A stretch of 23,709 nucleotides of DNA from a virus. This document shows positions 970-13,763 of the stretch, piece by piece. The notes below the pieces were generated by a model that was not told the origin of the DNA, did not search any database, and worked only from the letters and a program-made list of their open reading frames with translations. The stretch spans positions 1 to 23,709 of the IMG/VR virus record IMGVR_UViG_3300018420_000118; one strand, 5' to 3'. The translations under genes were made by a program, and so were the position numbers. The first letter of the stretch is position 1; each line of letters opens with the position of its first letter.

Positions 970-1865
970 TACGCTACCTCGTCTTCCTCAATGTCTACCA
1001 ACTCAGCAACCATAACCTCATCGTCTTCTTCCATAGAAGAGTTTGCTTTCTCTGCCCATGTGTTTGCGATGTATGAGTTATAGTTATCTACCCACGACAT
1101 AAAGTCCATGAACATTTCTTGGTCTTTGTCTGTGATGTCGATAGTCTTTGATACATCCAGCGATACTGTTGGAAGGTAAAAGGCATTGCCATTTGGCAAC
1201 TTTCTTTCCTGAGTATTAGCCGTAATGATATGCTGCAGTGGCATCCGTTGCATCTTCTTGAGGGAAGCAAAGCTATCGCCCACAATTTTAAATGCGTCAC
1301 GATTATCAATCTCCCAGATGAACGGGGTAGGCTCAACATCAACTGCATCTCCATTTGAAGTTACAGCATCAATAAGTTCAACCGTACCTAGTACCACACG
1401 AACACGTTTAATCTGCCGTATCAAATCCTGTGTCTTCTGAGGCAGTGCCTTGAAGTCTTGGATATAACCAGCAGGTTTACCGCAGTTAAAACCACCATCA
1501 TTATCCTTGAGGTCTACGTTCAAGTCATCATTCATAAGTGTCTTAACATAACGATTTGGTTTATCACCTGCACCCTTTACAAAACGCTTGTACATAAAAC
1601 GCTGCAAGAATGGGCGAAGTTTAATTGATGGGGCATACAGAGTATCACCATCAGGTATCTCTAGTTTGTATGTACCACCAGATACAACTTCCATGTTTAC
1701 TGTCTTACCCTTTACTTCGGTCTGACCCATGATAGCTGAGTGATTAATCCGAAGACGTGCAAGACTACTAGACTTTTGCTTCTGGGCTGGGCCTTCGCCA
1801 GCAATACCCATAGCCTTTGCCATAGCTGCATAATTGTTAGTATCGATAGTAGTTAATTGTGTCAT
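969..1865 (-). CDS. candidate single-stranded-DNA-binding protein with acidic tail
   Basis: 298-residue protein without a motif that I recognise with certainty. Three things suggest an SSB. It sits between DNA polymerase and exonuclease, where T7-like modules keep their ssDNA-binding protein. Its first 240 or so residues are rich in beta-type sequence with basic and aromatic residues. Its last 25 residues are strongly acidic (SSMEEDDEVMVAELVDIEED region), like the C-terminal tail of T7 gp2.5 that contacts polymerase and helicase. The ATG at 1865 is preferred because GGAG lies seven bases upstream; a TTG two codons earlier is less likely. A promoter-like element at 1898-1926 lies just upstream. 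A recombination mediator or annealing protein is an alternative. Confidence 0.5.
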   Translation of the reverse strand: MTQLTTIDTNNYAAMAKAMGIAGEGPAQKQKSSSLARLRINHSAIMGQTEVKGKTVNMEVVSGGTYKLEIPDGDTLYAPSIKLRPFLQRFMYKRFVKGAGDKPNRYVKTLMNDDLNVDLKDNDGGFNCGKPAGYIQDFKALPQKTQDLIRQIKRVRVVLGTVELIDAVTSNGDAVDVEPTPFIWEIDNRDAFKIVGDSFASLKKMQRMPLQHIITANTQERKLPNGNAFYLPTVSLDVSKTIDITDKDQEMFMDFMSWVDNYNSYIANTWAEKANSSMEEDDEVMVAELVDIEEDEVA

Positions 1866-1897
1866 ATTCAATCTCCTTTTGTTGCGAAAGTTCGGTA

Positions 1898-1926
1898 GTT
1901 ATATCAGATTACATCCTTGGTGTCAA
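1898..1926 (-). promoter_or_regulatory. sigma70-type promoter with extended -10
   Basis: Reading leftward: TTGACA (1926-1921), 17-bp spacer ending in TGA, then TATAAC (1903-1898). The -35 is perfect, the -10 matches 5 of 6, and TGn directly before the -10 makes it an extended -10 promoter. It overlaps the last codons of the polymerase gene, and the predicted transcription start is about 25 bases upstream of the candidate SSB start codon. Confidence 0.75.
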
Positions 1927-3943
1927 GCCAATTCGGACCTATTTTTGCCTCTAGTAGAAGTGGTACATTGAAGTCTATACCCCACTGTAGTTTAATTAAG
2001 TTGGGTAAGTCTCTGTTTGTACTACTGATTGCCTCTACAACTGCTCTCTCTTCCTCTGGATGAACATCAATAACGATGCTATCATGTACTGTGTTTACCA
2101 CACATGACCGCATGTTGTCAAGTAGTTTTTGTATGTGCATAAGTGCTATTGGCACAATGTCTGCTGTAGCAAACGACTGCACAGGGTAGTTTTTTATCTG
2201 CGTAAAGTGTGATACACGACCACTTGTTTTACGTACTACGTTTGGAAAGGCAAACTCCCGGCCTGAAGGTGTTCGTATTACGCCTGTGTTCAAAGCCTCT
2301 TTAGCCAATCTGGTATGCCAAAACCCAATTCCTTCGTACTTTTGCGTGAAGTGTTCGTAGTATTTTGCTTCGGCAGGTGTGCGTCCGAACCCCGTTGCCC
2401 CGTAAAGGGGCGCAAAGGTGTGCGCTTTCGCAGTCTGTCTATCCGTAGGTTGACCAGCTTCAGTAATAACTTTAGCGGTATATGAGTGTACATCAAACCC
2501 AGTAGATACTTCTTCAATTGCTACTCCATCTTGTGATAAATATGCGGCAGTGCGAAACTCCAACTGAGCAAAGTCAGCTTCTAGTATCTTGCCTTTGTTC
2601 CATCTTGATACAAACACTTTCTTCACAGGGAATGTACCACCTCTTGGCATGTTTTGCATGTTAGGGTCAGCACCAGAGAACCTACCAGTAGAGGTGCGGT
2701 GCTGTAGCAGACGGACATGCAGCTTACCGTCAGCCTTAGTGTGTATGTTAATACCCTCTACAAATGATGACAGATAAGTTTCTACTGCAGATAGTCTGCG
2801 TACCTTCGATAGAAAATCAACTGCATCATCCATACCCTTTGCTCTTGCAGAAGTCTCAAGCAACTCTAGGTTCTGCTTACTTGTGCTAAAACCATTTGCA
2901 CTTGCCCACTTAGGTGATGGTGGTTTGAACTTGAGGCCAGCTAAATCGGAAGTAGGATTGAAAAGGAAACCCATATTACCGCAAGTATTACATCTATTCT
3001 CTTTTGCATAGGGTGTACCATCTTTCTTGAGTTTTCTGATGTATCCCGTTCCATTACAATCCCCACATTTCTCTGCCTTTGTTTTGTATATTCTATCTGT
3101 TCCAGATGCAATCAGACTACGAAAGTCTGCATCATCCATGTAGGGGTCAATGCTGTTTGCCCAATAGGTCTTGTCCTTTACTCTCCTACCATATATAACC
3201 CAAGACAATTGCTCTGGTGAATTAAGATTGATAGGTGTATCACCCATAAGATTGCGAACATGAGCCTGTAATCCATTTACCAGTTCCTCTCTTTCCTGTT
3301 CAAACTCCTTCTTCACACTGTCTAATGCATCTCTGTCAACCTTAAAACCTGCTTGATATATCCTTGCTAGAGATACACAAACTTGGTTAGTCAGTTGAAC
3401 TGTATTCATCAGGCTTGCATCTTTGCTGTTAAGGCGATAAATAAGTTTGTCAGCCAACTGCTGTGTAGCATTAAGGTCAGCAGACAAATATTCACATAGT
3501 TCATTGTATGGTATATCACGTGTTGATAATCCTTTCTTGAAGTATTCTTTCAGTGTGTCTTGTTTCTTCGTGTCCAACTCATAGCGTTCTGCACAAGCCT
3601 CAAGTGATAGCGGCTCTTTAATACCACGCTGTAGTACATACTCAGCAAGCATTGTATCAAACACAGGTCCATCATACTTGAAGCCTGACTCCCACAACCA
3701 CAACAGGTCATGTGCTGCATTGTGCATGATGAGTACAGTTGCTTCATCTAAGAACCATTGCACACGCTCATGATAATCCTTTTGATTAGGAACATCTACG
3801 TGGTCAAATGGAAAGTGTTGTTCAACACCTTGGTCAGTTAACACACCTACCATGACCAGTGTATTCTCTGGCTCAAACGGGTCAAGGTGCATCTTACCAT
3901 CACGATGCGTTACTGTATTTTCTACGTCTAATACTATTTTCAT
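1904..3943 (-). CDS. polA: family A DNA polymerase with 3'-5' exonuclease and DnaJ-type zinc-finger insertion
   Basis: 679 residues. The N-terminal proofreading exonuclease has Exo I (Asp6, Glu8), Exo II (HNAAHD around 74-79) and Exo III (Tyr152xxxAsp156). Between it and the polymerase domain is a zinc finger: Cys293xxCys296xGxG, then Cys318xxCys321. This DnaJ-like central piece is the known signature of the SAR116 phage HMO-2011 polymerase group. The polymerase domain has motif A (ADFAQLEFR, Asp457), motif B (Arg502, Lys506, Phe510, Tyr514-Gly515) and motif C (His620-Asp621-Ser622). Motif C reads HDS where HDE is usual. The residue equivalent to Klenow Phe762 is Phe510. This is the replicative polymerase. 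The start overlaps the helicase stop as TAATG, and a promoter-like element lies about 40 bases upstream inside the helicase gene. Confidence 0.97.
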   Translation of the reverse strand: MKIVLDVENTVTHRDGKMHLDPFEPENTLVMVGVLTDQGVEQHFPFDHVDVPNQKDYHERVQWFLDEATVLIMHNAAHDLLWLWESGFKYDGPVFDTMLAEYVLQRGIKEPLSLEACAERYELDTKKQDTLKEYFKKGLSTRDIPYNELCEYLSADLNATQQLADKLIYRLNSKDASLMNTVQLTNQVCVSLARIYQAGFKVDRDALDSVKKEFEQEREELVNGLQAHVRNLMGDTPINLNSPEQLSWVIYGRRVKDKTYWANSIDPYMDDADFRSLIASGTDRIYKTKAEKCGDCNGTGYIRKLKKDGTPYAKENRCNTCGNMGFLFNPTSDLAGLKFKPPSPKWASANGFSTSKQNLELLETSARAKGMDDAVDFLSKVRRLSAVETYLSSFVEGINIHTKADGKLHVRLLQHRTSTGRFSGADPNMQNMPRGGTFPVKKVFVSRWNKGKILEADFAQLEFRTAAYLSQDGVAIEEVSTGFDVHSYTAKVITEAGQPTDRQTAKAHTFAPLYGATGFGRTPAEAKYYEHFTQKYEGIGFWHTRLAKEALNTGVIRTPSGREFAFPNVVRKTSGRVSHFTQIKNYPVQSFATADIVPIALMHIQKLLDNMRSCVVNTVHDSIVIDVHPEEERAVVEAISSTNRDLPNLIKLQWGIDFNVPLLLEAKIGPNWLDTKDVI

Positions 3944-5163
3944 TATGCTTCATACCTCGCTGTTTTGTAATCTAGTTCACAGTGTACCACACCATGCCAT
4001 CCTGTCAACTTATTTTTTACTACGTTCAGATGGCGTTGGTTGTCTTCTTCGTCCTGTCCATCGACAGGTGGGTTCTTTGCAATCAGCACCATGAGGTCTG
4101 CCTCTGCTGCTTTACCTGTGCGTGACCCTTCCATCATACTCTGGTTCAAGAGTACCTTGCCCTCTGCCTCTGCTGATAGCTGAGACATATAGAAGACAGC
4201 ACACTCATGCTCCTTTGCAATCTGTCTTGCATGTACTGCATTAGCCTTCAGTGCTTCATCTTGCCTTGCGTAACCGCCCTTGGCAAACTTATCTCCCATG
4301 TCAAGCAGTACAATGTCTGGCTGATATGTCTTACATATAGACTCTACCCAATTCATATCACGTCCTGTGGCATCCTTAATCTTGATGCGTTCCTTTACGG
4401 GTGCATATAGATTACGTGCCTTCGCTGGTTCTTTCTTTATCTCCTGCATAGTCATACCTGTAGCAGCAGTTAGATATCTTGCACCAACACGATGATACCC
4501 TTCTTCGTTACATAAGATAATACAGTTAGCACCTTGATGTGCAAACCCACCGGGGCTGGCAATCAAACTCGCATGGAAGGATGTCTTGCCTGTGTTTGGT
4601 CTCGCACCAATCTCAATCAGGTGTCCAGCATTTACCCCTTCAACCTTACGTGTAAGGCTAGGTATGTTGAATGTCCACCGTGCCTCTAGGTCTGCCTTTG
4701 CCATCAGTGTGTCAAGTTCGATGTCGTCCCATTCTACATTCAGGTTAGGCGTGAAGTCATCTCCATATTGCTCAAGCAATAAACGCAGTGGCTCAAGGCT
4801 TGACTTCTCACCGTTGACATAATCGAAACCAAGGTTGGCAATGTCCTCTCCAATTACCTGTTGGAATAACTTGGACAACACCTCTTGTGATACATCACTG
4901 CCAAGTGGCTGTTCCTTTTTGATTGTATGAAACAATGCAGAGTACGCTTGCTTTTGTGCCGTAGTCAGTGTTGGATTGTTGGACATAAACAATGCCTCAA
5001 TCTCATCTGGTGTTACGGTACGTTCATATCTTTGCATTGCTGCATCAATAGCTTGTTTGATTTTACGGACATCTTTGCTGAACAATCTATCGGGGCAACG
5101 TGCGCCACGATGGTCATCATAGAATGACTTGTTCATCAGACTCCTTATTAGTGATAGTTCCAT
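3943..5163 (-). CDS. DnaB/T7 gp4-like replicative DNA helicase
   Basis: 406 residues. The RecA-type ATPase fold of the DnaB family occupies the C-terminal half: Walker A GARPNTGKT (186-194), the catalytic-glutamate strand ILCNEEGYHR (Glu220/221), Walker B-like IVLLDMGD (Asp288), a MSQLS sensor-like segment near 326 and a KNKLTG segment near 383 that matches the DnaB C-terminal KNR.G motif. The roughly 150 residues before it are probably the N-terminal domain that contacts the primase. It would unwind the fork ahead of the polymerase as a hexamer. It lies directly downstream of a separate primase gene, so the primase-helicase functions fused in T7 gp4 are split here. GGGAG lies eight bases before the ATG. 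Confidence 0.93.
   Translation of the reverse strand: MELSLIRSLMNKSFYDDHRGARCPDRLFSKDVRKIKQAIDAAMQRYERTVTPDEIEALFMSNNPTLTTAQKQAYSALFHTIKKEQPLGSDVSQEVLSKLFQQVIGEDIANLGFDYVNGEKSSLEPLRLLLEQYGDDFTPNLNVEWDDIELDTLMAKADLEARWTFNIPSLTRKVEGVNAGHLIEIGARPNTGKTSFHASLIASPGGFAHQGANCIILCNEEGYHRVGARYLTAATGMTMQEIKKEPAKARNLYAPVKERIKIKDATGRDMNWVESICKTYQPDIVLLDMGDKFAKGGYARQDEALKANAVHARQIAKEHECAVFYMSQLSAEAEGKVLLNQSMMEGSRTGKAAEADLMVLIAKNPPVDGQDEEDNQRHLNVVKNKLTGWHGVVHCELDYKTARYEA
3981..4008 (-). promoter_or_regulatory. candidate promoter upstream of DNA polymerase
   Basis: Leftward TTGACA (4008-4003), 16-bp spacer ending TGG, TACACT (3986-3981). The -35 is perfect, the -10 is 4 of 6, and a TGn precedes it. It lies inside the 3' end of the helicase gene, with a predicted start of transcription about 30 bases from the polymerase ATG. 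It is weaker than the sites at 1898 and 5969. Confidence 0.45.
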
Positions 5164-5166
5164 ATA

Positions 5167-5934
5167 TTATTCTCCCATGTTGTTTAAGTTGGCTATGTCA
5201 ATACTATTACGATATTTCAAATCATCTGTCAACCGTAGAACCTTAACATTATCTACGTGACCTCTCAATTCCTTTGCAAACGCTAGAGTCTTTGGTAATG
5301 CATCTGGGTCTAGCGCAATGATTGCTGTCGAGAACTGTGCAAGATACCTCTTGTGTCCTTCTGATAATGATGTACCCAACACAGCTACACCAACAAATAC
5401 ATCATCACCTACAACTGCGGCACTCACACAGTCCTCAACAACTACAGCTACCCTACCACAACCAGATGAATAAGGCAAGCTACTTTTTCCATATCGCTTC
5501 CACTTAGGCAATCTCTTCATCACAGCACGACCTGCTGCATCTACAATCTTGCCATCATGTACGACAGGAAATACAACTCTGTCTTCTTTGACATCATACA
5601 TAAGATTGTGCTTGTCATAATCTAAATCCCACATAGCACAGAACTTATCTGTATAATAGTTAGTATGGTTTCTTACCACATAGGGTGGCAACTCAAATAC
5701 CTCATCAGCAAAACGCTGAACGTCACGCATATTATCACGTATATCATCAACAGACAAGTGAACACGTGTACCACCCTTTGTACCACAAGATGCTTTGTAG
5801 CAATTCCATACAAGTGAACCCATGTTATTGGTCACTGTGAATGTCTTGTAGCCACCACACTCAGGACAATTCATCCTCTTTGTAGTTCCATTAGGTATAT
5901 CCATATCACTTATAGTGTTATATATATTATACAT
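5167..5934 (-). CDS. DNA primase, zinc ribbon plus TOPRIM
   Basis: 255 residues, about the size of the primase half of T7 gp4. The N-terminal zinc ribbon is CPEC (Cys23, Cys26) with Cys45 and Cys50, which reads the priming template. The TOPRIM catalytic domain shows VVVEDCVSA (Glu167) and ALDPDA (Asp209, Asp211). It would make RNA primers for lagging-strand synthesis and work with the adjacent helicase. No helicase domain follows in the same chain. The ATG at 5934 has no strong Shine-Dalgarno site; the internal Met codons at residues 11 and 21 are alternatives, but the second would remove residues just ahead of the first zinc ligands. A strong extended -10 promoter sits about 35 bases upstream in the end of the integrase gene. 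Confidence 0.9.
   Translation of the reverse strand: MYNIYNTISDMDIPNGTTKRMNCPECGGYKTFTVTNNMGSLVWNCYKASCGTKGGTRVHLSVDDIRDNMRDVQRFADEVFELPPYVVRNHTNYYTDKFCAMWDLDYDKHNLMYDVKEDRVVFPVVHDGKIVDAAGRAVMKRLPKWKRYGKSSLPYSSGCGRVAVVVEDCVSAAVVGDDVFVGVAVLGTSLSEGHKRYLAQFSTAIIALDPDALPKTLAFAKELRGHVDNVKVLRLTDDLKYRNSIDIANLNNMGE
5204..5232 (-). promoter_or_regulatory. weak candidate promoter upstream of helicase
   Basis: Leftward TTGACA (5232-5227) with a 17-bp spacer and TAATAG (5209-5204), only 3 of 6 in the -10 and no TGn. It is listed because its placement in the 3' end of the primase gene, about 40 bases before the helicase start, matches the other elements. A second TTGACA follows at 5200-5195 without a -10. 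Confidence 0.25.
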
Positions 5935-5937
5935 GTA

Positions 5938-6855
5938 TTAATCACTTTCCTTTGCGGCACTTGTAATGCTTATATCATGATTTTTACGCTGTGTCAATGC
6001 ATAATCTGCACTTGCCAGTGTATTTTTTATGTACGGCTGCACACTCTGTGGGTTAGCATGTCCTGTAACCGACATTATCTGTCCGATACCGACACCTGCC
6101 TCTACCATTTCAGTTGTTCCTGTCCTACGTAAGTCAGATAACCGTAACTCCTTGGGTAATCCTGCTACATCCATTATGTCACGTGCATGTAGAGGAAGTT
6201 TCTGTAACGAGTATGGAATAAACTCACCACGTATGGGGTTTGGTCTTGGTGCAACGTATGGTTGAAATCCAAAGTCTTCATTTTGTTGTACCAACATTTG
6301 GAATAACTCATCTGAGATAGGCAGTGATACTTCAGCCCTTCGCTTTGACTGTTCAATATGCACTGTCTGGTCAACAAGATTGATGCTATCCCATGTGAGC
6401 ATACGCATATCACCTAATCTCTGACACCATTCGTATGCCATCTGTGCTATAAGCCCTATGTTTCGCCATTTAAAGTCGCTGTAGGCGGTATCTAGGAACT
6501 TCTGTACGTCACCCCTACTCCAAACAACCTTGCGCCTCTGTGCGGCTCTTTTGCGAATGTTTGCAAACGGATTTGTTTGTATAAGTTCTTCACGCACACC
6601 GTGATTAAAAACAATACGTGTTACTGAGATGGTATGGTTCGCAAGATGCAATCCTCTCTCACACCAATCGTTGTAGGCTGACTTTGCAATACGTGTTGTA
6701 ATTTTGTCACAGTAAAAGTGACAGAGGGGTTTACCCTCTGCCTCAGTGTTAAGCAGCACGTTGATAAAGTATTTATACTGTGCTTTAGTTTCATCCCTTA
6801 ACTGTTTGAAATCAAAGGAAGAAGTATAGTCATGTACTAGCTTTTGAAGTTTCAT
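5938..6855 (-). CDS. int: tyrosine recombinase / phage integrase
   Basis: 305 residues. An N-terminal SAM-like core-binding domain (about 10-95) precedes the catalytic domain. Catalytic residues in order: Arg146 (YEWCQRLGDMR), Lys171 in the beta hairpin (SKRRAEV), Arg243 in SDLRRTGTTEM, His266 in VTGHANPQ and the nucleophile Tyr275 in QPYIKN. The spacing is normal: 23 residues from Arg to His and nine from His to Tyr. The box II histidine of HxxR is Ser240 here. It would integrate phage DNA at an att site or resolve dimers. It is embedded in the replication arm between DUF932-side genes and the primase. The Shine-Dalgarno site AAGGAGG is near perfect. No tRNA-like attP was found next to it. 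Confidence 0.92.
   Translation of the reverse strand: MKLQKLVHDYTSSFDFKQLRDETKAQYKYFINVLLNTEAEGKPLCHFYCDKITTRIAKSAYNDWCERGLHLANHTISVTRIVFNHGVREELIQTNPFANIRKRAAQRRKVVWSRGDVQKFLDTAYSDFKWRNIGLIAQMAYEWCQRLGDMRMLTWDSINLVDQTVHIEQSKRRAEVSLPISDELFQMLVQQNEDFGFQPYVAPRPNPIRGEFIPYSLQKLPLHARDIMDVAGLPKELRLSDLRRTGTTEMVEAGVGIGQIMSVTGHANPQSVQPYIKNTLASADYALTQRKNHDISITSAAKESD
5969..5997 (-). promoter_or_regulatory. sigma70-type promoter with extended -10 upstream of primase
   Basis: Leftward TTGACA (5997-5992), 17-bp spacer ending TGA, TATAAG (5974-5969). Perfect -35, 5 of 6 in the -10, plus TGn. It lies wholly within the C-terminal codons of the integrase gene. The predicted transcript starts about 30 bases upstream of the primase ATG. 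Confidence 0.72.
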
Positions 6856-6864
6856 AGTGCCTCC

Positions 6865-7164
6865 TTAGTCTCTGTGTCCATACTGTTCCGCATTCCTACC
6901 GTTCTTAACAACACAACCTCTCGGTGCTTCATCACAATTAGGATAACTGTAACAAGCAACGTGTGCGTCTTCTTCGTATATTTTTTCACTTAGTATCTTA
7001 ACTCTCTGCAAGTTTGGATAACTAGGAATACAACAACCTGCAACCATAGAAAGAAACTTCTCCTTTGCAGCATCACTTGTTTCTGCAACAACCTCTGCTG
7101 TTAAAGTGCCAGTAACAAACCACGGTTTGAACTCTATCTTAAATTTTGTAAATTCTTCACTCAT
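6865..7164 (-). CDS. hypothetical protein, cysteine-containing
   Basis: 99 residues, not recognised. The N-terminal half (KFKIEFKPWFVTGTLTAEVVAETSDAA) looks like a small beta-alpha domain; the C-terminal half has five cysteines (Cys-Cys pair near 44, then three between 71 and 84) and could bind a metal. The start overlaps the stop of the DUF932 gene (ATGA), and its own stop is followed directly by the strong ribosome-binding site of the integrase, so it is co-transcribed with both. Confidence 0.7.
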   Translation of the reverse strand: MSEEFTKFKIEFKPWFVTGTLTAEVVAETSDAAKEKFLSMVAGCCIPSYPNLQRVKILSEKIYEEDAHVACYSYPNCDEAPRGCVVKNGRNAEQYGHRD

Positions 7165-8015
7165 GCTGCCACCAGATTTTGAAACAGTGAACTGTCAATC
7201 CACTGACCAACTTTGTTCTCTCTGTTGAACATAGTGACTGCGGCAGTATCGTGTCCAGTATTTCGCATTGTGAAACCGTTGCGTTCATCTGCGTATGTAG
7301 CGTAGTTAGTAAACGCTGAGTACAGAGCGAACACATTACGTCCACGTATTGCTACCTCTTGATTGTACAAGGTAAACATCTTGTCTGCGGCACGGTCTGA
7401 CTTCATTAACTTTTCCAAGAAAGCCCGGACATCTACAGTTGCAAGGCTCTGATTAGCCCACTGCTGTAAACGTCTGGTCTGCATCTGGAAGTCTTGGTTA
7501 GACTTACGTAGTTGTGTAATGAACCGTTCAACGCTGAATCCTGAAGTGTTCTTGCGTCTTACTTTGTCATGGTCTCCACGAATCATTCCGTTTGTACAGA
7601 AGAAATCAATAGCCCCAAAGAACACTTGATTGGAACAGCTACCGTCCACGGCACGTAATCCTATGATACGCTGTGCTACCGTTGTTTCATGTTTGTTGGT
7701 TACAATTTTAGTTTTTACATTAGGCAATGTGATATCCATAGAAGCCCATGCATTGTTTCTGGCTGACTTCCAGTTGACCTCTGCACCTTGCACTTCATAG
7801 GGTGACAGCTTCTCCATCATGGTGTCCTGCACCTTGTTGAAGAACTTAGTATGGGTCTCTGTCGTGAAGTCATTGCCAACTACACCCAGATATTCTCCTG
7901 TGTCTGCATTGATGACGTATTTCTTGTCCGTCACTTTGGTTGGTTCATAAGCCAGTTTGAAATCAAGGTTCTCTGGCACTTCATCAATTAGTTTCGATAC
8001 ATAATCCAATGGCAT
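7161..8015 (-). CDS. DUF932/DUF945-type phage protein
   Basis: 284 residues resembling the DUF932 (phage/plasmid-like TIGR03299) proteins: an N-terminal segment with a TGEYLGVVG-like turn, a central FFCTNGMIRGDH segment that matches the family's conserved CxNG region, and a helical C-terminal third. Such proteins are widespread in phages and plasmids and have no settled function; a DNA-linked role is often supposed. The start is well supported by AAAGGAGATTTATT before the ATG. Two promoter-like elements upstream (8064 and 8124) suggest strong separate expression. Assignment rests on overall pattern, not on a search. Confidence 0.75.
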   Translation of the reverse strand: MPLDYVSKLIDEVPENLDFKLAYEPTKVTDKKYVINADTGEYLGVVGNDFTTETHTKFFNKVQDTMMEKLSPYEVQGAEVNWKSARNNAWASMDITLPNVKTKIVTNKHETTVAQRIIGLRAVDGSCSNQVFFGAIDFFCTNGMIRGDHDKVRRKNTSGFSVERFITQLRKSNQDFQMQTRRLQQWANQSLATVDVRAFLEKLMKSDRAADKMFTLYNQEVAIRGRNVFALYSAFTNYATYADERNGFTMRNTGHDTAAVTMFNRENKVGQWIDSSLFQNLVAA

Positions 8016-8063
8016 AATAAATCTCCTTTCTCTGCCGTTAACTGATATTATCTTATAGCGTCA

Positions 8064-8092
8064 AATATAGCGACAACAAAGCATATTGTCAA
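8064..8092 (-). promoter_or_regulatory. sigma70-type promoter upstream of DUF932 gene
   Basis: Leftward TTGACA (8092-8087), 17-bp spacer, TATATT (8069-8064). Perfect -35, -10 5 of 6. It lies in the 147-bp gap before the DUF932 gene and gives a leader of about 40 bases. Confidence 0.75.
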
Positions 8093-8123
8093 GTACAAAT
8101 AAACATACTCTGCTAATCCCATA

Positions 8124-8153
8124 AGAATATCACCATAATAATTATAATGTCAA
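8124..8153 (-). promoter_or_regulatory. second, tandem promoter upstream of DUF932 gene
   Basis: Leftward TTGACA (8153-8148), 18-bp spacer ending TGA, TATTCT (8129-8124). The -35 is perfect, the -10 is 4 of 6 and is preceded by TGn. The spacer is unusually AT-rich. Together with the site at 8064-8092 it fills the only real gap in this part of the arm. Confidence 0.55.
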
Positions 8154-8162
8154 GCACTGTCA

Positions 8163-8396
8163 TTACTCGTCATCCTCTAGTTCTTCAAGCACATAGTCTG
8201 CATAATACTTTGGTCTGCCCTCATCATCCATTGGGGGAACAAACTTCATCACGCTGTGCAATAAACACTCAAGACTTTCCAATTTACCTACATCAGAAGT
8301 CCATAGGTCATTGCACTCATGTATTGTCATAATCATACTCTTCAAGTCATTGTGAGCCTTGAGAAATTTTACTCTTTCTTCGTGTGTTATATTCAT
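8163..8396 (-). CDS. hypothetical small protein with acidic C-terminus
   Basis: 77 residues, mostly helical, ending in an acidic run (LEELEDDE). Not recognised. Its ATG is preceded by AAAGGAGAAGTAGC, a good ribosome-binding site, and overlaps the stop of the next gene upstream by four bases, so it is translationally coupled to it. Its stop is close to the tandem promoters of the DUF932 gene. Confidence 0.7.
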   Translation of the reverse strand: MNITHEERVKFLKAHNDLKSMIMTIHECNDLWTSDVGKLESLECLLHSVMKFVPPMDDEGRPKYYADYVLEELEDDE

Positions 8397-8902
8397 GCTA
8401 CTTCTCCTTTCATCCAGTTGGGTGTTTCATTTATCTTGTTCAGCTTGCACCAATCAGTGCTTGTGTATTTCCATTTGTAATAGCTACGATATGCAGCTAT
8501 AGGCCAATCTTCCTGCGTCTTGAGATGGTCATTGTCTTTGCCAAAGCATTGTGGGTGTGGCGTAATCCTGCCATCAGGTATATACTTAGCACACTCTCGT
8601 AGCTTTGGTATTAGAAGTGAGCATTTGTGTACCTTGTGATAACGCTTGGTATATTCAAGGCTCATCTGCTCAAGCAGGGTCAATGCCCATTCATAGTTAG
8701 CACGAGTCTCGCCAGCCCACAGTGTACATGGATGCTTGGCGTGTGCGGCGGGTGCATTTTGCAACCCTTCAATGTCTGGCGCATAACGCTTGACAGCATA
8801 TGACAGCATCTGTGCTTCTTCCAATGGCATCTTGACAATATGTTTATCGCATAGTGACTTGGCAATGTCGCTTTGGAAACATTCAATAAGAAATCTATTC
8901 AT
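8393..8902 (-). CDS. conserved phage protein of the CDKHxVKM family
   Basis: 169 residues. The opening, with SLCDKHIVKMPLEEAQMLSY at about 16-36, is a pattern I know from many phage proteins (usually CDKHVVKM.LE.AQML), followed by WAGETRANYEWALTLLE and a YHKVHKC segment and a C-terminal YRSYYKWK / PNWM region. The conserved Asp, Lys and His residues suggest an enzyme or nucleic-acid-binding site. Some members are labelled as pyrimidine-dimer-glycosylase-like in databases, but I do not see a T4 DenV-type active site, so function is left open. Start supported by GAGGAGAAGTAGT before the ATG. Confidence 0.75.
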   Translation of the reverse strand: MNRFLIECFQSDIAKSLCDKHIVKMPLEEAQMLSYAVKRYAPDIEGLQNAPAAHAKHPCTLWAGETRANYEWALTLLEQMSLEYTKRYHKVHKCSLLIPKLRECAKYIPDGRITPHPQCFGKDNDHLKTQEDWPIAAYRSYYKWKYTSTDWCKLNKINETPNWMKGEVA

Positions 8903-8903
8903 A

Positions 8904-9104
8904 CTACTTCTCCTCTGTTGGGTAACATTTAATAAGTATCTTATAATACTTATCCTGATTCTCGTGATGTCTCATCTCCTCGTGTGATAAGAACTGACAA
9001 TACTCTTGGGATAGTTCTTCTGTCAATATGGATTGGTTGTCTATAAACTGCCACTCCACACCTGTATGACCCCACATACTTATGACAAGGGCAAACTCTT
9101 TCAC
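8904..9104 (-). CDS. hypothetical small protein, GTG start
   Basis: 66 residues, not recognised; contains WGHTGVEWQFID near the N-terminus and two cysteines. The start codon is GTG, overlapping the TGA of the upstream gene as GTGA, with GAGGTG five bases before it. Stop lies two bases from the start of the next gene, as expected for a tight operon. Confidence 0.6.
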   Translation of the reverse strand: MKEFALVISMWGHTGVEWQFIDNQSILTEELSQEYCQFLSHEEMRHHENQDKYYKILIKCYPTEEK

Positions 9105-9274
9105 TCTATCACCTCATAGGTTGTAAACTCTGCCAAACCCTCACGCCAATCTGTCTCATCATAGTTCATCCACTCGTCTGACCTATCACGATTTATTTCT
9201 TCCAGTATCATTGGCAGTGTCATGTTATAAACAGACCCATCTTCTACATCACGAATTTTGTATAGCTTATTCAT
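9101..9274 (-). CDS. hypothetical small acidic protein
   Basis: 57 residues, acidic, not recognised (NKLYKIRDVEDGSVY at the N-terminus). The ATG at 9274 is chosen because GGAG lies seven bases upstream; the in-frame GTG five codons earlier overlaps that ribosome-binding site. It overlaps the end of the zinc-ribbon gene upstream by a few bases. Confidence 0.6.
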   Translation of the reverse strand: MNKLYKIRDVEDGSVYNMTLPMILEEINRDRSDEWMNYDETDWREGLAEFTTYEVIE

Positions 9275-9401
9275 CTGGTATCTCCTCACGCTTTATCTCA
9301 TTGTTACACGCATAACATACCAGCTTGTGTGCATACATCAGCCACTCTTTGGGTATGTGCATCACGTTCTTGCAGTGTTGGCATATGTGCTTAATCACCA
9401 T
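9267..9401 (-). CDS. zinc-ribbon miniprotein (44 aa)
   Basis: 44 residues with a CQHC pair at the N-terminus and a CYAC pair about 20 residues later, the spacing of a small zinc ribbon. The ATG at 9401 lies inside the final codons of the preceding gene, with GGAG four bases ahead; a longer reading frame upstream overlaps the neighbour entirely and is rejected. It is one of at least three such miniproteins in this arm. Confidence 0.65.
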   Translation of the reverse strand: MVIKHICQHCKNVMHIPKEWLMYAHKLVCYACNNEIKREEIPDE

Positions 9402-9597
9402 GATTCTCCATGTACCAATCCTTGTATGTTTTGTATGCCAATAGTTTGTATGCATACAGGTCTGCAAACTCCCAATCTGCAATCGGGTCAATCCCACCGT
9501 ATTCAAATATTGTTTCTATCTCACTTTCAATCATCACCATCAAGGCGTTGGCCTGTTCTGGTGTTAGTTCAAGTGCCTTTGTCTTTTTCTTAGTCAT
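9391..9597 (-). CDS. hypothetical small protein
   Basis: 68 residues beginning with a lysine-rich stretch (TKKKTKALEL), then LTPEQANALMVMIESEIE, probably a helix, and an aromatic C-terminus (YKTYKDWYMENHGD). Not recognised. The ATG at 9597 has GGAG seven bases upstream; an ATG two codons earlier is only one base from the GGAG. Uses the start cassette GGAGAATGAAGATG. Confidence 0.65.
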   Translation of the reverse strand: MTKKKTKALELTPEQANALMVMIESEIETIFEYGGIDPIADWEFADLYAYKLLAYKTYKDWYMENHGD

Positions 9598-9766
9598 CTT
9601 CATTCTCCTCAAATGTCATGTCTGCATGAATTTCCCAATCACCACCGACTGTAATCCAATCTACGTTATCTGCCTGTGCTTTTTCATATGCTTCCTCTGC
9701 ATCCTTTGCCTCAATCAAGGCATCCTTGTATACGTACTCTGTTGCCATTACTTTGTACTTAGGCAT
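9590..9766 (-). CDS. hypothetical small acidic protein, DpnD/PcfM-like fold possible
   Basis: 58 residues: KYKVMATEYVYKDALIEAKD then AEEAYEKAQADNVDW, a beta-beta-alpha pattern seen in small phage and plasmid proteins where a strand pair leads into a helix starting AEEA. The acidic tail FEENEDD is encoded by DNA that is also the ribosome-binding site and start of the next gene. Start at 9766 by the GGAGAATGAAGATG cassette. Function unknown; the fold suggestion is a guess. Confidence 0.6.
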   Translation of the reverse strand: MPKYKVMATEYVYKDALIEAKDAEEAYEKAQADNVDWITVGGDWEIHADMTFEENEDD

Positions 9767-9887
9767 CTTCATTCTCCTCTTCGTCAATCTCAAACAATAT
9801 ACGGATGTACCCTTCATCCTCGCCTACCCAATGATACCCATTTGTGGGGCAGGTCTGAAGCCAATCAAACAATTCTTCTCTAGTCAT
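9759..9887 (-). CDS. hypothetical 42-aa acidic protein
   Basis: 42 residues (TREELFDWLQTCP at the start, then GYHWVGEDEGYIRILFEIDEEENEDA). It begins with the same GGAGAATGAAGATG cassette as its neighbours and its stop overlaps the start of the next gene by eight bases, which is why I accept so short a frame. An N-terminal helix followed by a beta hairpin is likely. Not recognised. Confidence 0.6.
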   Translation of the reverse strand: MTREELFDWLQTCPTNGYHWVGEDEGYIRILFEIDEEENEDA

Positions 9888-10035
9888 CTTCATTCTCCTT
9901 TGGATACCATACATCTACATCACACCCACAGTTAGGGCAGTGTAGGTTTGTGACCATAGCCATGTTCTCAGACTCATCCGATATGTCATGGTCACATTGC
10001 CATATCAGTTCTGTTTTACAGTGCCAGCAATTCAT
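9880..10035 (-). CDS. zinc-ribbon miniprotein (51 aa)
   Basis: 51 residues with CWHC at positions 3-6 and CPNCGC around 33-38, a classic two-knuckle zinc ribbon, and an acidic tail (ENEDD) encoded by the start cassette of the following gene. The start at 10035 is preceded by GGAGATGACAG. It overlaps the 3' end of the upstream gene by 20 bases. Possible roles include binding nucleic acid or a host protein; none can be read from the sequence. Confidence 0.7.
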   Translation of the reverse strand: MNCWHCKTELIWQCDHDISDESENMAMVTNLHCPNCGCDVDVWYPKENEDD

Positions 10036-10204
10036 CTGTCATCTCCACTAAGTAGCCCTCATCGTGACTATCAACAAACGTAATACCACGCAACTTATCC
10101 AAAAAATCTTCACCATCTTCATGGGGTATAGCATTACCCCAACGGTCAATCATATCATCAAGATACATAAACTGCAATTCATTAACGTATTCTGTCTCAT
10201 TCAT
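10016..10204 (-). CDS. hypothetical small acidic protein
   Basis: 62 residues, acidic, not recognised (NETEYVNELQFMYLDDMIDRW at the start, split by one conserved-looking aromatic pair). Start at 10204 is supported by GGAG six bases upstream. Overlaps both neighbours by a few bases. Confidence 0.6.
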   Translation of the reverse strand: MNETEYVNELQFMYLDDMIDRWGNAIPHEDGEDFLDKLRGITFVDSHDEGYLVEMTDELLAL

Positions 10205-10386
10205 TTGTCTCTCCATCCTATGTACAGCAGTATAAGTATGCCTGTCAGGTATGTCAACAGTAGCCCTATGTTAAACATCTCTTCACCTGTCATGTCACAG
10301 TCTCCCTGTATAAAGTGATGCAGGGCGTATCCATTACGCATTTTCGAGGGGTGTTCTGGCTGGACGCACCATTCACCCTGCATCAT
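10201..10386 (-). CDS. small single-pass membrane protein
   Basis: 61 residues. A hydrophobic helix, FNIGLLLTYLTGILILLYIG, occupies about residues 38-57 and is followed by WRDK, consistent with a single membrane span with a short positive end. An alternative ATG at 10293 with GGGAG upstream would give a 30-residue protein that is almost only the membrane helix. The longer start has AAAGGA eight or so bases upstream. Function unknown. Confidence 0.5.
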   Translation of the reverse strand: MMQGEWCVQPEHPSKMRNGYALHHFIQGDCDMTGEEMFNIGLLLTYLTGILILLYIGWRDK

Positions 10387-10399
10387 CCCCTATTCCTTT

Positions 10400-10552
10400 C
10401 TACTTCCTGTCTTTTGTCATGCTATCAAGATGCTTCTTGATTTCATGCACTTGCATCCACGCTTCTTGGAAATGCCACTTGTGTTTACGCACCTGTTTCA
10501 TTTCCATTGTCTTGCGCTTTTCTGTCTTGCGCTTTAAGTTTGTTGCGGTCAT
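10400..10552 (-). CDS. hypothetical 50-aa basic protein
   Basis: 50 residues, strongly basic: TATNLKRKTEKRKTMEMKQ then a helix with HKWHFQEAWMQVHEIKKHL. The ATG has GGAG four bases upstream (GGAGAAGC). It could bind nucleic acid. Not recognised. Confidence 0.5.
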   Translation of the reverse strand: MTATNLKRKTEKRKTMEMKQVRKHKWHFQEAWMQVHEIKKHLDSMTKDRK

Positions 10553-10626
10553 GCTTCTCCTTTCTCTTTCTGTTAGGCACTACTTGTGTGCGTCTCCTCG
10601 AAGATAACATAGCCTTCGCTACTGGA

Positions 10627-10788
10627 TTAACCTTTGAGAACCGCACGAATACCTGCCCCCACCAGTAGTATAGCGATTGTGTACGCCACTAGCGGTACTA
10701 TCCCGGCTGACCAATAGATATCAGAACCAGCCATATATGTCAATATACTACCTGCACATAAGCAGGTTACTGTCAAAACCTTTTCCAT
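10627..10788 (-). CDS. small two-span membrane protein
   Basis: 53 residues. Two hydrophobic segments, VLTVTCLCAGSILTYMAG (about 4-21) and GIVPLVAYTIAILLVGAGI (about 29-47), with a short aspartate-containing loop between. The start at 10788 has AGGAG ten bases upstream and lies two bases past the preceding stop. Membrane miniproteins in this early-type cluster may be superinfection-exclusion or host-takeover factors, but that is speculation. Confidence 0.55.
   Translation of the reverse strand: MEKVLTVTCLCAGSILTYMAGSDIYWSAGIVPLVAYTIAILLVGAGIRAVLKG
10715..10743 (-). promoter_or_regulatory. candidate extended -10 promoter inside a small gene
   Basis: Leftward TTGACA (10743-10738), 17-bp spacer ending TGA, TATCTA (10720-10715; 3 of 6). 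It matches the TTGACA-N14-TGATA pattern of the stronger sites but is inside coding DNA about 165 bases from the next start. Confidence 0.3.
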
Positions 10789-10790
10789 GT

Positions 10791-11132
10791 CTAGTCGCTC
10801 CTGTAGATTTCTTCTACGTCAATTTCTATCAGTTCTTCTCTCTTGAAGTCCTGATACTCCTCGTGTAAATCTGCTATACTGTCCAGCCAATCGTCATAGT
10901 GGCTGTGTGAGCAGATATATTCCTTGTGGCCTATCGAATTGCAATCAGTGCCACCTTTCCTATTCAAATAGGCATGGGCAAATGCCACCGCATCTGCCGC
11001 CCTGTCTAATCCCTTTATGAGATAGTCAGTGCCACCCTTAAATTTCCACCTAGCGTTGCCATTAACGTAACGCCCATCCTCTGTATGTGCGCCATAGTTT
11101 TCCAGCACCTGTGTTGATATTACATATGCCAT
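10791..11132 (-). CDS. conserved hypothetical protein
   Basis: 113 residues. Starts AYVISTQVLENYGAH, followed by WKFKGGTDYLIKGLD and an acidic C-terminus. The combination of a beta strand, ENYGAH and a WxFKGG segment is a pattern I have seen in phage and plasmid hypothetical proteins; no function is known to me. Start preceded by the cassette GGAGATTGACACATG. Confidence 0.65.
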   Translation of the reverse strand: MAYVISTQVLENYGAHTEDGRYVNGNARWKFKGGTDYLIKGLDRAADAVAFAHAYLNRKGGTDCNSIGHKEYICSHSHYDDWLDSIADLHEEYQDFKREELIEIDVEEIYRSD

Positions 11133-11135
11133 GTG

Positions 11136-11261
11136 TCAATCTCCTACATCATTTTGTTCTGCCCATGTGCTACCACACTCAGGACACGCATCTTCTGCCT
11201 CACTTATAGCATGATTACCACATTCTTGGCAAGACCAATCGTCTACATACTCATTATCCAT
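11136..11261 (-). CDS. zinc-ribbon miniprotein (41 aa)
   Basis: 41 residues with CQECG and CPECG knuckles about 18 residues apart, rubredoxin-like in spacing, and an otherwise acidic sequence. Its TGA stop is part of the GGAGATTGACACATG cassette that starts the next gene. Start at 11261 follows GGGGTATTGACAG. It is the third zinc ribbon of the cluster and unlike the other two in charge. Confidence 0.65.
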   Translation of the reverse strand: MDNEYVDDWSCQECGNHAISEAEDACPECGSTWAEQNDVGD

Positions 11262-11264
11262 CTG

Positions 11265-11462
11265 TCAATACCCCGCATCTTGTTTAAAGTTCTCATATAA
11301 ATCACGCCACGCCTGTTGAATTGCATCATCAAAGACATGTTGCCTGTCCATTACATAGTCGGCAAACTCTTTTTGTTCAGACCGTTCCATGTATGGATTG
11401 ACCCGATACTTACACTCTTGGCGCACGTTTTCCAATGCACTTATCTTTTCATCATAATCCAT
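11265..11462 (-). CDS. hypothetical small helical protein
   Basis: 65 residues, charged and probably all helical (DYDEKISALENVRQECKYRVN, then a second helix from about residue 30). Not recognised. ATG at 11462 chosen because GGAG lies eight bases upstream; the ATG five codons earlier overlaps that site. Confidence 0.6.
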   Translation of the reverse strand: MDYDEKISALENVRQECKYRVNPYMERSEQKEFADYVMDRQHVFDDAIQQAWRDLYENFKQDAGY

Positions 11463-11476
11463 GCTACACTCTCCCA

Positions 11477-12181
11477 TTAGCAGTCAATTACAAAACCAGT
11501 GCGGTCATTCTTAGCCTTACCCTTGGCCTTCAGTCCCACGATTACACCTTGTGGGTCAAGAAAGCGCAGGTCATCTTTGTCACCGTCAATGACAGGCAGA
11601 CCCTTGAATGTCTTGGGCAGCTTGCCACGAAATACCACTGCCGCATTGATACCAGTTTCACGCACCGCTGTCAATACCTGCTCTGCATAGTCAGGGTCAG
11701 CCTCAGAATATGACAGGGTTAGGTGATAGTTCTCTGGCATTTTAGCATAAGCACGTTTGACAATCTTTGTGTAATCATAGAACTGTATCTCTGGAAACTG
11801 TTCCATGATACCTGTCTTTTCATACTGAATGTCAGACGTACCGTTCAGACGGACGCAAGGTTTTACGCCCTTTTTTGTGTTGCGCTTGCTGAACCTTGTC
11901 AAGTCCTTGTAAAGCGCATCCATGTAGCCAATACGGTCTGATAGATAGAACACAGTCTTGCGTTCACGTCCACGCTGAACCACGCCCATTTGACCACGCC
12001 CTGCGCTATTGAGGCAACCCTCATGACACTTGGCCTTGTCAGCCAAGGCGCACAGATTATGCACCTTGCCTCTGAACACGGTTTTGTACGGCTTCATGTA
12101 CTGGATGCCAGTCTCATACTCAGAGCCGTCACCCTTGATTGTTTTGGCATTATTGCCAACACCTATAAGATTATAAGTCAT
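11477..12181 (-). CDS. Gp88 (gene product 88)-family phage protein
   Basis: 234 residues. The signature of the family is visible: a cysteine group CALADKAKCHEGCLNSAGRG (about 44-63), followed by VQRGRERKT, an LYKDL helix and VRLNGTSDIQYE (about 109-120). Family members are common in actinophages and plasmids; function is not settled. The Cx7Cx3C spacing plus the downstream RLNGTSD strand resembles a metal- or Fe-S-binding site, which is inference. Start preceded by GGGAGATTGACAG. It is by far the largest gene of the small-gene cluster. Confidence 0.75.
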   Translation of the reverse strand: MTYNLIGVGNNAKTIKGDGSEYETGIQYMKPYKTVFRGKVHNLCALADKAKCHEGCLNSAGRGQMGVVQRGRERKTVFYLSDRIGYMDALYKDLTRFSKRNTKKGVKPCVRLNGTSDIQYEKTGIMEQFPEIQFYDYTKIVKRAYAKMPENYHLTLSYSEADPDYAEQVLTAVRETGINAAVVFRGKLPKTFKGLPVIDGDKDDLRFLDPQGVIVGLKAKGKAKNDRTGFVIDC

Positions 12182-12199
12182 CTGTCAATCTCCCGTTAG

Positions 12200-12223
12200 T
12201 GATGCACTTACTAGGTACAACCC
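12200..12223. repeat. left arm of inverted repeat flanking 12249-12617
   Basis: Reads, on the minus strand, GG(G)TTGTACCTAGTAA(G)TGCA(T)CA. It matches the plus-strand copy at 12660-12683 at 21 of 24 positions. It lies in the leader of the Gp88 gene, between its ribosome-binding site and the candidate promoter at 12224. Confidence 0.6.
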
Positions 12224-12252
12224 ACGTTAGCAGGTTGCACGCCTAGTGTCAA
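12224..12252 (-). promoter_or_regulatory. candidate promoter upstream of Gp88-family gene
   Basis: Leftward TTGACA (12252-12247), 17-bp spacer ending TGC, TAACGT (12229-12224). Perfect -35, poor -10 (3 of 6) but with TGn. It starts in the stop codon of the preceding gene and would give a leader of about 35 bases carrying the inverted-repeat arm. Confidence 0.4.
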
Positions 12253-12617
12253 GCGGCTTGCTTGGAAGCCTTGCGTCCACGAGAAGCGCAACATAAATCC
12301 TTGATGTTTGTAACATCGAAAGAACCCATGTCGAGATTGTGTGGACGCTTTGACAATTCCTTATCAACCGCAGTCAATATCAATTCAAAGCAAGCAATAG
12401 AGTGAGACAAAATACGTCCACCATATTCAGCCTTGAGTTGTCTAGCCGCATGACGTGAAGCCTTGTAAAGTTTCATCTTAGACAGATGAGTCCCTGTCTT
12501 TTTGTGATACTTTTTGGCAACCCGACTAAACTTGAACTGATTACGCTCAGACAAGTTTTGACCAGTTAGACCTGTTGACTGCTTCCAATAAGAAACCACG
12601 AATGATACATTTGCCAT
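12249..12617 (-). CDS. hypothetical basic protein flanked by inverted repeats
   Basis: 122 residues, basic, not recognised. Helical middle (KYHKKTGTHLSKMKLYKASR, then HAARQLKAEYGG) and a C-terminus with a Cys-Cys pair followed by ASRGRKASKQ. The charge fits nucleic-acid binding. ATG at 12617 with GGGAG ahead (GGGAGATTTTCTC). It stands alone: about 70 bases to the next gene downstream and about 150 bases upstream, with repeat arms on both sides. Confidence 0.6.
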   Translation of the reverse strand: MANVSFVVSYWKQSTGLTGQNLSERNQFKFSRVAKKYHKKTGTHLSKMKLYKASRHAARQLKAEYGGRILSHSIACFELILTAVDKELSKRPHNLDMGSFDVTNIKDLCCASRGRKASKQAA

Positions 12618-12659
12618 GAGAAAATCTCCCTTGTGTTGTAGGTTGGCAGGTTAGGCACA

Positions 12660-12683
12660 GGATTGTACCTAGTAAATGCACCA
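12660..12683. repeat. right arm of inverted repeat flanking 12249-12617
   Basis: Plus-strand copy of the TTGTACCTAGTAA(A)TGCA element, inverted relative to 12200-12223, 21 of 24 matches. Lies in the leader of the 122-residue protein gene. Confidence 0.6.
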
Positions 12684-12730
12684 CTATATATGAAGCTGGA
12701 TTTACCCGTTAAGCACCTAGCTGGATGTAA

Positions 12731-12763
12731 GACAAGGCTATCACCTTGTCGGATTTATGTCAA
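12731..12763 (-). promoter_or_regulatory. candidate promoter with hairpin/operator over the -10
   Basis: Leftward TTGACA (12763-12758), 17-bp spacer ending TGA, TAGCCT (12740-12735). A perfect 7-bp inverted repeat, GACAAGG / CCTTGTC (12731-12737 and 12744-12750), covers the -10. The -10 is weak. This could be a promoter with a repressor site over it. A terminator is less likely because no T-run follows. Confidence 0.4.
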
Positions 12764-12769
12764 GTGCTA

Positions 12770-12988
12770 TTAACCCTTAGCGGATTGGCACTTGTCGAAT
12801 ATGCAATCGCTAGGCCTAGGCTTTGCAATCGTACCCTTGATATTCTGACATACCTTGCCCGAATAATTTTCCCAATACCTTGCACGCATTGTGCTAGTGT
12901 GAATTTTGAAGCTGAAGTCTGTGGCATATTTATCACGCACTTCTCTCAGCTTGGCACGCTCGCGCTTGCCTAGTCTAGTTTTTGCCAT
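12770..12988 (-). CDS. hypothetical small basic protein, first gene of the leftward arm
   Basis: 72 residues, basic N-terminal half (AKTRLGKRERAKLREVRDKY), two cysteines in the C-terminal part. Not recognised. The ATG at 12988 is preferred over a much longer frame because AGGGG lies seven bases upstream and the extension has unlikely composition. The leader repeats the GGTAAATCC and GGTGCTT words found near 12690-12712. As the promoter-proximal gene, a regulatory or host-takeover role is possible. Confidence 0.55.
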   Translation of the reverse strand: MAKTRLGKRERAKLREVRDKYATDFSFKIHTSTMRARYWENYSGKVCQNIKGTIAKPRPSDCIFDKCQSAKG

Positions 12989-13238
12989 GGATTTACCCCT
13001 ATAAAAAGCACCACTTGATTTTAGTCCAGACGGATTGCTCCCCTGAGTCAGGTATCCACATAACAGAGTTATCGTATTCAGCCGCAAGGCTATTGTATGC
13101 TTTCTCTGTCGGCTTTGTTGCCGTCTGTTGATGATTGGATTAGAACACAATGGGAAAGAGAAGTAAACACCCAATCTGTAAGCTATTGATTTTATTCAAT
13201 TCTTATATTCCAGCTGGATGATATTCATGTTTTGTTTC

Positions 13239-13258
13239 TGTTTCGTTCCTGTTTCGTT
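13239..13258 (+). repeat. tandem TGTTTCGTT repeat
   Basis: TGTTTCGTT occurs at 13239-13247 and again at 13250-13258, eleven bases apart, about one helical turn, and a degenerate third copy precedes them. A related inverted word (AACGAGAACG) occurs near 13289. Spacing of one turn suggests protein-binding sites on one face of the helix. Confidence 0.5.
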
Positions 13259-13340
13259 TTAGTATTCGCAGCATGGATGAGAACAAAACGAGAACGCTAT
13301 TCGCGTATATATATGGTGTCGATATTTGATAGGGGTATAG

Positions 13341-13384
13341 GCTAACAATGTAGACCGATACTAACAAAGTTAGTCTATGCTAAC
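13341..13384. repeat. operator-like CTAAC/GTTAG cluster
   Basis: Four half-sites: GCTAAC (13341), ACTAAC (13360), its inverse GTTAGT (13369) and GCTAAC (13379). The middle pair forms a perfect ACTAAC-AAA-GTTAGT dyad. Starts are spaced 19, 9 and 10 bases apart, close to one or two helical turns. This looks like a cooperative repressor or activator binding site. Confidence 0.5.
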
Positions 13385-13718
13385 TTTCTTAGCTTTTTCT
13401 TAGCTGGTTTTCTCGATAACTCATATGGTATCAGTTAACGATTGCAGTCTATTTGTTTGTTTTTATTGGTTTTTATTCTGATTTAGTGGCATTTTTTACA
13501 ACTAATGGTAGCAAAACCAAAATCTTTTACAATTCAAGAGGGTACGGCAGGATGCCACCCCCCGCCCCTCTGTTACGTATACACATAAATACACAGATTA
13601 GGAATATTAAGTGTTAACCACAGCGATAACTGTTAATGAGATACATGACTAGCTACACACGGGGTACATGGATATTGCACAAAAAATAGGCAGAAAGATG
13701 TTAAATACATTTTAGGGG

Positions 13719-13747: not shown

Positions 13748-13763
13748 TATAGTATAACAAGAA

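Follow-up and report, generated by a model that had tools for sequence, protein, structure and literature searches.

Conserved, putative host-type promoters within the leftward replication arm of an HMO-2011-type marine phage

The window analyzed here, the whole of IMG/VR record IMGVR_UViG_3300018420_000118 (23.7 kb; positions 1 to 23,709), is by its sequence a fragment from an HMO-2011-type phage, one of a dominant and broadly distributed group of marine phages. The DNA polymerase A of the window shares 75% identity with its HMO-2011 counterpart and 67–68% with those of the roseophages CRP-345 and CRP-1, and it has the domain order of the group, PF01612, PF00684 (below its cut-off) and PF00476, with a partial DnaJ domain that is central, between the exonuclease and polymerase domains. 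The leftward arm of the window starts, in order of transcription, with small genes, a GP88-family gene, a pyrimidine-dimer-glycosylase-like gene and a DUF932 gene, followed by the genes for an integrase, a primase, a DnaB-type helicase, polymerase A (polA), a probable single-strand DNA-binding protein (SSB; ssb, 969–1865) and a Cas4-type exonuclease. A preliminary description of the sequence listed eight leftward promoters in this arm and proposed that the replication genes are individually promoted. Sorting these sites against more than 400 related loci, we consider it highly probable that host primary-sigma RNA polymerase transcribes the arm from a few conserved internal promoters and not from one per gene. 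The best of them, which we call P_ssb, is located at the end of polA.

A probable promoter at the end of the polymerase gene

P_ssb (1898–1926, minus strand) consists of a −35 TTGACA at 1926–1921, a 17-base spacer and an extended −10, TGA-TATAAC. The −35 is written into the codons Leu-Asp-Thr, among the last of polA (1904–3943, minus strand; PF00476 and PF01612), and TATAAC at 1903–1898 lies directly past the polA stop codon, TGA at 1906–1904. The whole element reads TTGACA-N17-(TGA)TATAACTA, and its hexamers match the consensus at 11 of 12 positions. We compared the ends of about 280 polymerase genes, drawn from four subgroups. Within the window’s group the gene ends in TGG-CTT-GAC-ACN-AAR-GAY-GTN-NNN-TGA-TATAACTA, and in 75/75 non-redundant relatives Leu673 is encoded by CTT and Asp674 by GAC, while the neighbouring codons vary. 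These two were the sole wholly invariant codons among the 55 Leu and 43 Asp codons of polA that were scored. Identity across relatives was 98.8% in the −35 and 99.8% in the −10, as compared with 76% in the spacer and 59% in the leader, and the spacer was 17 bases long in all 69 matches of the window’s group.

The element also persists where its relationship to the coding sequence differs. Throughout the CRP-2 group the distance from the stop codon to the −10 varies and the spacer is held at 16–17 bases. Four distinct members of this group (L182, L183, L187 and L226) have polymerases that end in W-L-E or W-L-N and have lost the Leu-Asp pair; exactly these four carry CTTGACA-17-TATAAC in intergenic DNA downstream of polA. 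Pelagiphages have an extra gene after the polymerase, and there the promoter sits in the intergenic space between that gene and the homolog of ssb. We trained a promoter matrix on the pelagiphage intergenic promoters only, which avoids the circularity of an ssb-trained matrix, and found that it recognized 49/50 ssb upstream regions in the other groups, compared with 0/522 gene interiors. Because the codons and the post-stop bases are fixed, because the element has relocated, and because the matrix recognizes it, conservation of the protein cannot explain site 1898, and a promoter can. The site has the hexamers of a primary-sigma promoter, a spacer held at 17 ± 1 and conservation beyond coding shortly before a gene start. 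The proposal of a promoter here is thus borne out by the 75/75 fixed codons, the 99.8% identity of the −10 and the intact relocation in four relatives, and by these comparisons P_ssb is a deeply conserved, putative promoter.

We also considered what the promoter may do to the protein. In polymerase genes with the promoter embedded, 121/122 distinct sequences that have the Leu-Asp pair encode it, directly after the conserved Trp, by CTT-GAC. In the pelagiphages and the four relocated cases, where the promoter lies outside the gene, the position next to Leu varies among Asn, Gln, Glu and Asp, and Leu itself is encoded by TTA or CTA in 54/54. On balance we favour the idea that the C-terminal Leu-Asp of the polymerase is retained since its codons, CTT-GAC, form the −35 box, such that the promoter would dictate the protein end. 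If true, a regulatory element limits which codons and which amino acids the replicative polymerase uses throughout a phage group of ocean-wide distribution, and a promoter element can hop between coding and non-coding DNA. The kind of element is known, a host primary-sigma promoter, and it is newly described for this phage group within the literature searched. Comparative proof of a promoter embedded in, and constraining, the end of a polymerase gene appears unusually clean here, making this a clear example from nature of replication-gene codons that contain a promoter, with the relocated copies as built-in controls. Separately, the strongest synonymous-constraint windows of polA were at 2440–2520 (minus strand; codons ~476–500), away from the promoter.

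Putative promoters before the primase and DUF932 genes, and the other listed sites

A second conserved, putative promoter, P_prim (5969–5997, minus strand), lies inside the 3′ end of the integrase gene, 34 bases before the primase gene, with a −35 TTGACA at 5997–5992, a 17-base spacer and TGA-TATAAG, of which the −10 occupies 5974–5969. In about 50 relatives the end of the integrase gene reads TTGACR-17-TGnTAnAAG, and the element persists despite differences in the stop and frame of the integrase, including relatives in which the integrase stops just past the −10 or about 30 bases further; the spacer is 18 in one of them (L025), and the integrase end of HMO-2011 itself reads TTGACA-17-TAAAAG. 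With the pelagiphage-trained matrix, a promoter was found in 27/54 primase upstream regions versus 9/391 gene interiors (p = 8e-21), which places P_prim in the conserved set. Site 5969 is therefore also conserved beyond protein coding.

A third putative promoter, P_DUF932 (TTGACA-17-TATATT; 8064–8092, minus strand), precedes the DUF932 gene (7161–8015, minus strand). The same matrix found a promoter in 11/24 DUF932-gene upstream regions versus 4/160 interiors (p = 2e-8). Many relatives have TTGACW-17-TGATATAACA before this gene, and overall the relatives show TTGACW followed after 17 or 18 bases by TATAAC or TATAAG. The near relatives L006, L035 and L037 have TTGACA and TATAAG 18 bases apart; the corresponding TATAAG of the window is separated from the −35 by 29 bases, and at 17 there is a TATATT that is new to the window. 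By this alignment the presumed promoter function before the DUF932 gene is kept and its position has shifted between relatives. A candidate second promoter of the same gene (8124–8153, minus strand; TTGACA-18-TGA-TATTCT) scored well with a relatives-only matrix (14.3), but its pattern was not seen in the relatives compared.

The other entries in the list of eight gained no such support. All eight sites are present in the window, with minus-strand TTGACA words starting at 1926, 4008, 5997, 8092, 8153, 10743, 12252 and 12763, spacers of 16–18 bases, and −10 hexamers that end at 1898, 3981, 5969, 8064, 8124, 10715, 12224 and 12735, by which we name them. Their recurrence is also more than chance, as the codon-preserving shuffles bear out: the sense strand of the arm has nine copies of TTGACA-N13..15-TGnTA and the opposite strand none, and shuffles that preserve protein and codon usage gave 2.67 ± 0.79 sites, with 0/500 reaching nine (0.21 sites when the shuffle was extended to intergenic DNA). 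Yet the list was selective. The statement that other TTGACA words in the arm lack a −10 does not hold, since the unlisted sites 2121 (mid-polA, TGGTAAACA) and 11674 (mid-gene, TGGTATCAA) satisfy the same rule, and site 10257 (TTGACA-17-TATACT, 11/12 consensus) has a better hexamer pair than most listed sites. The TGATA ascribed to the motif is present in five of seven sites, and the rest show TGG or TGC. Leaders of about 25–40 bases fit the TTGACA words at 1926, 5997, 4008 and 12252, for which the −10-to-start distance is 32–42 bases, and not those at 8153, 12763 and 10743, for which it is 108–162 with the gene set used. Location within the end of the preceding gene is true of some sites, among them the conserved 1898 and 5969.

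Scores from the relatives-only matrix separate the listed sites. Identified by the start of their TTGACA words, 1926 scored 25.5, 5997 scored 15.4, 8153 scored 14.3 and 8092 scored 10.3, followed by 10743 (9.5), 12763 (8.0), 4008 (6.1) and 12252 (<6). The mid-gene words of sites 11674 and 2121 scored 13.5 and 12.7, so that 10743, 12763 and 4008 are no better than words inside genes. Because the corresponding arm holds a single exact-pattern site in each of HMO-2011, CRP-345, CRP-1 and CRP-2, the eightfold recurrence is peculiar to the window and not a feature of the group.

Site 3981 (3981–4008, minus strand), before polA, consists of the helicase codons Leu-Thr ... Val-His-Cys, and most relatives of like gene order have TTGAAT or TTGAAC (Leu-Asn) in place of TTGACA. 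Upstream regions of polA contained a promoter in 2/144 cases versus 24/4512 interiors (p = 0.19), and those of the GP88 gene in 0/55 versus 12/413; sites 3981 and 12224 fail as promoters because neither set exceeds gene interiors. The −10 of site 12224 (12215–12252 with its hairpin, minus strand), TAACGT, is the loop of a hairpin in the GP88-gene leader, in which 12240–12233 pairs with 12222–12215. This hairpin, GTGCAACC-TGCTAACGTG-GGTTGTAC (12215–12240, minus strand; −18.2 kcal/mol), is kept in six near relatives, where the loop is unchanged and one of the pairs is compensated, a single change that is modest evidence. At site 12735 (12731–12763, minus strand) the −10 likewise overlaps a hairpin, GACAAGG-TGATAG-CCTTGTC (12750–12731), and site 10715 (10715–10743, minus strand) lies in a small membrane-peptide open reading frame (ORF); both score at mid-gene level, and few relatives cover either position. 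It is possible that the hairpins at 12215–12240 and 12731–12750 are leader RNA elements of early genes.

Thus about three of the eight sites held up (1898, 5969 and the DUF932 region with 8064), and 3981, 8124, 10715, 12224 and 12735 are unsupported. That all eight are active promoters, with the replication genes individually promoted by host sigma70 polymerase, would account for the excess over shuffles (9 versus 2.7) and for the empty opposite strand. We nevertheless regard it as very improbable, given that the matrix scores of 3981, 10715, 12224 and 12735 do not exceed those of mid-gene words, that the upstream regions of polA, helicase, integrase, exonuclease and GP88 genes are at background in relatives, that 3981 decays to TTGAAT, and that two of the −10s lie in hairpins.

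TTGACA words are common in the arm in general: its sense coding DNA (1–13000, minus strand) holds 16, versus 6.5 after codon shuffling (about 2.5-fold), and most are not conserved promoters. Taking every TTGACA as a −35 box was rejected, as several turned out to be ordinary codons that change between relatives, for instance TTGACAGATGA ahead of the helicase, which encodes LTDD. Three TTGACA words (11139, 11268 and 12188) stand at junctions of ribosome site and start codon.

Proposed operons, the probable single-strand DNA-binding protein and the RNA polymerase

The helicase, polymerase, integrase and exonuclease genes of the arm adjoin or overlap their neighbors. In relatives, a promoter was found in 1/89 helicase and 0/44 integrase upstream regions, not above gene interiors, and the matrix scan found one in 0/115 exonuclease upstream regions. 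Because these genes and polA have no conserved promoters upstream and abut or overlap, the arm is better read, on the comparative evidence, as overlapping operons with internal promoters (DUF932–integrase, primase–helicase–polA and ssb–exonuclease). The claim that the genes are ‘individually promoted, not one operon’ fails on the polA, helicase, integrase, exonuclease and GP88 upstream regions.

We propose that host primary-sigma RNA polymerase reads the replication arm from a few conserved internal promoters, at which we infer that transcription starts. P_ssb would start a transcript shortly before the gp32-like ssb gene, which would continue into the Cas4-type exonuclease gene, and these two genes would thereby gain mRNA beyond that of helicase and polymerase. 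Transcripts of the latter two would come from P_prim, within the end of the integrase gene, or from read-through. The third promoter would act before the DUF932 gene, at an exact position that changes from one relative to another.

The gene behind P_ssb (969–1865, minus strand) encodes 298 amino acids, is annotated as hypothetical in deposited relatives and is kept behind the polymerase gene in all subgroups; its product has a disordered acidic tail. Searches of PHROGs, Pfam and PDB sequences gave no usable match. An AlphaFold2 model built from 52 sequences (pLDDT 80.5) had the RB69 and T4 gp32 cores as its best VIA-align matches (Z 7.9 over ~171 residues, where a value below 8 is no proof alone), with many other single-strand DNA-binding proteins in the lower rows; Foldseek matches to the model were not significant. 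The predicted protein thus resembles T4 gp32 in its OB-rich core and acidic C-terminal tail and differs in being 8–10% identical to it, with no sequence-family match; its binding of single-stranded DNA is a prediction. We conclude that it is probably a gp32-like single-strand DNA-binding protein, which gives a likely identity, SSB, to a gene that the deposited records list as hypothetical.

Unlike helicase and polymerase, an SSB is required in stoichiometric amounts. This need would be a plain reason for an extra promoter before the gene, and P_ssb most likely supplies extra SSB of the phage. The exonuclease gene (103–969, minus strand; Cas4 domain, phrog_1990, E = 5e-42) overlaps ssb by one base and is likely co-transcribed with it. 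Internal promoters are known within phage operons, for example in lambda and among T4 middle genes. As in those systems, a promoter within the operon would boost a downstream gene, here probably that of the SSB; here, unlike there, synonymous constraint and relocation in many relatives reveal the element independently of the protein.

Which RNA polymerase reads these promoters is suggested by two lines of evidence. A T7-type RNA polymerase (PF00940) was found in 0/8 complete isolates and 0/9 long contigs of the group, with T7 as a positive control (E = 1e-109); the search covered relatives, the window itself being a fragment. The preliminary proposal that host sigma70 RNA polymerase reads the sites is supported to that extent, and by the consensus fit. 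The primary-sigma consensus of S. meliloti is CTTGAC-~17-cTATat, and that of R. etli likewise has CTTGAC (PMC4943231); the phage consensus, (C)TTGACA-17-TATAAC, shows the C that precedes TTGAC in both. The phage sites share with alphaproteobacterial primary-sigma (sigma70/SigA) promoters the CTTGAC(A) −35, the 16–17 base spacer, the TATA-type −10 and often TGn, so that a fit to alphaproteobacterial hosts is supported as a sequence match, not a demonstration. They differ in being phage-borne, in having TATAAC as the −10 in most members and, for P_ssb, in that the −35 is part of the polymerase coding sequence and the −10 directly adjoins the stop codon. The host-type early promoters A1–A3 of T7 (T7 record) are alike in that phage genes are read by host RNA polymerase, the counterpart here being the 12/12 rightward promoter P_R described below; here, no phage RNA polymerase was found in relatives to take over, and the replication arm contains additional host-type promoters. 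We found no literature on HMO-2011-type promoters, and the genome papers of the group that were consulted describe none; the one transcriptome study found concerns other pelagiphages.

Several observations weigh against this scheme. The CRP-3 group has only weak versions of P_ssb at the polA end, and the primase and DUF932 promoters are seen in about half of the relatives at the threshold used. The ssb assignment is a structure match of middling Z (7.9) without sequence support. Finally, the search for a conserved leftward promoter at the arm’s head (13000–13720, minus strand, beside P_R), from which the first leftward transcripts would be expected, yielded none, its best matches equalling those in shuffled sequence.

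That no first promoter was found for the arm could point to a phage-encoded factor that reads the polA-end element, or to some other binding site there (for replication or a regulator), as could the many small arm genes of unknown function and the fact that two parts of the element, its TATAACTA tail and the C preceding TTGACA, are stricter than a general host consensus. We think this very unlikely, as two hexamers 16–17 bases apart, a free spacer, TGn, and starts with ribosome sites nearby make up the primary-sigma pattern, which the pelagiphage versions keep, differing in detail. Least tenable is coincidence, with the site kept through the conserved polymerase C-terminus (N-W-L-D-T-K-D-V) and the rest being chance: that protein end is indeed conserved within the window’s group, but with synonymous codons fixed in 75/75, post-stop bases fixed, the promoter outside the gene where residues change and intergenic in pelagiphages, we give it almost no weight, and the comparisons refute it for 1898 and 5969, although it is the best reading of 3981 and 10715.

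A putative rightward promoter and late-arm sites

The first list covered leftward sites only, and missed the strongest promoter-like sequence and only perfect 12/12 match of the window, P_R (13719–13747, plus strand; TTGACA-17-TATAAT), before the first rightward gene (13921–14136). In 53 non-redundant relatives the match at P_R was 12/12 in 41 and 11/12 in nine, and the best match always had a 17-base spacer. With P_R, P_ssb, P_prim and P_DUF932, the comparison yields a testable transcription map, and it supports reliance on host-type promoters. AAGTGA/TCACTT repeats that follow P_R (13719–13860, plus strand) resemble operators. Promoter-like sites also occur in the late arms of roseophage relatives, where TTGACA-16-TATAAC or TAAAAC recurs in intergenic DNA before the coat-protein gene (L084:40787 in CRP-1, L091:14024 in CRP-345, L085:42295 in CRP-2 and L086:43219 in CRP-603).

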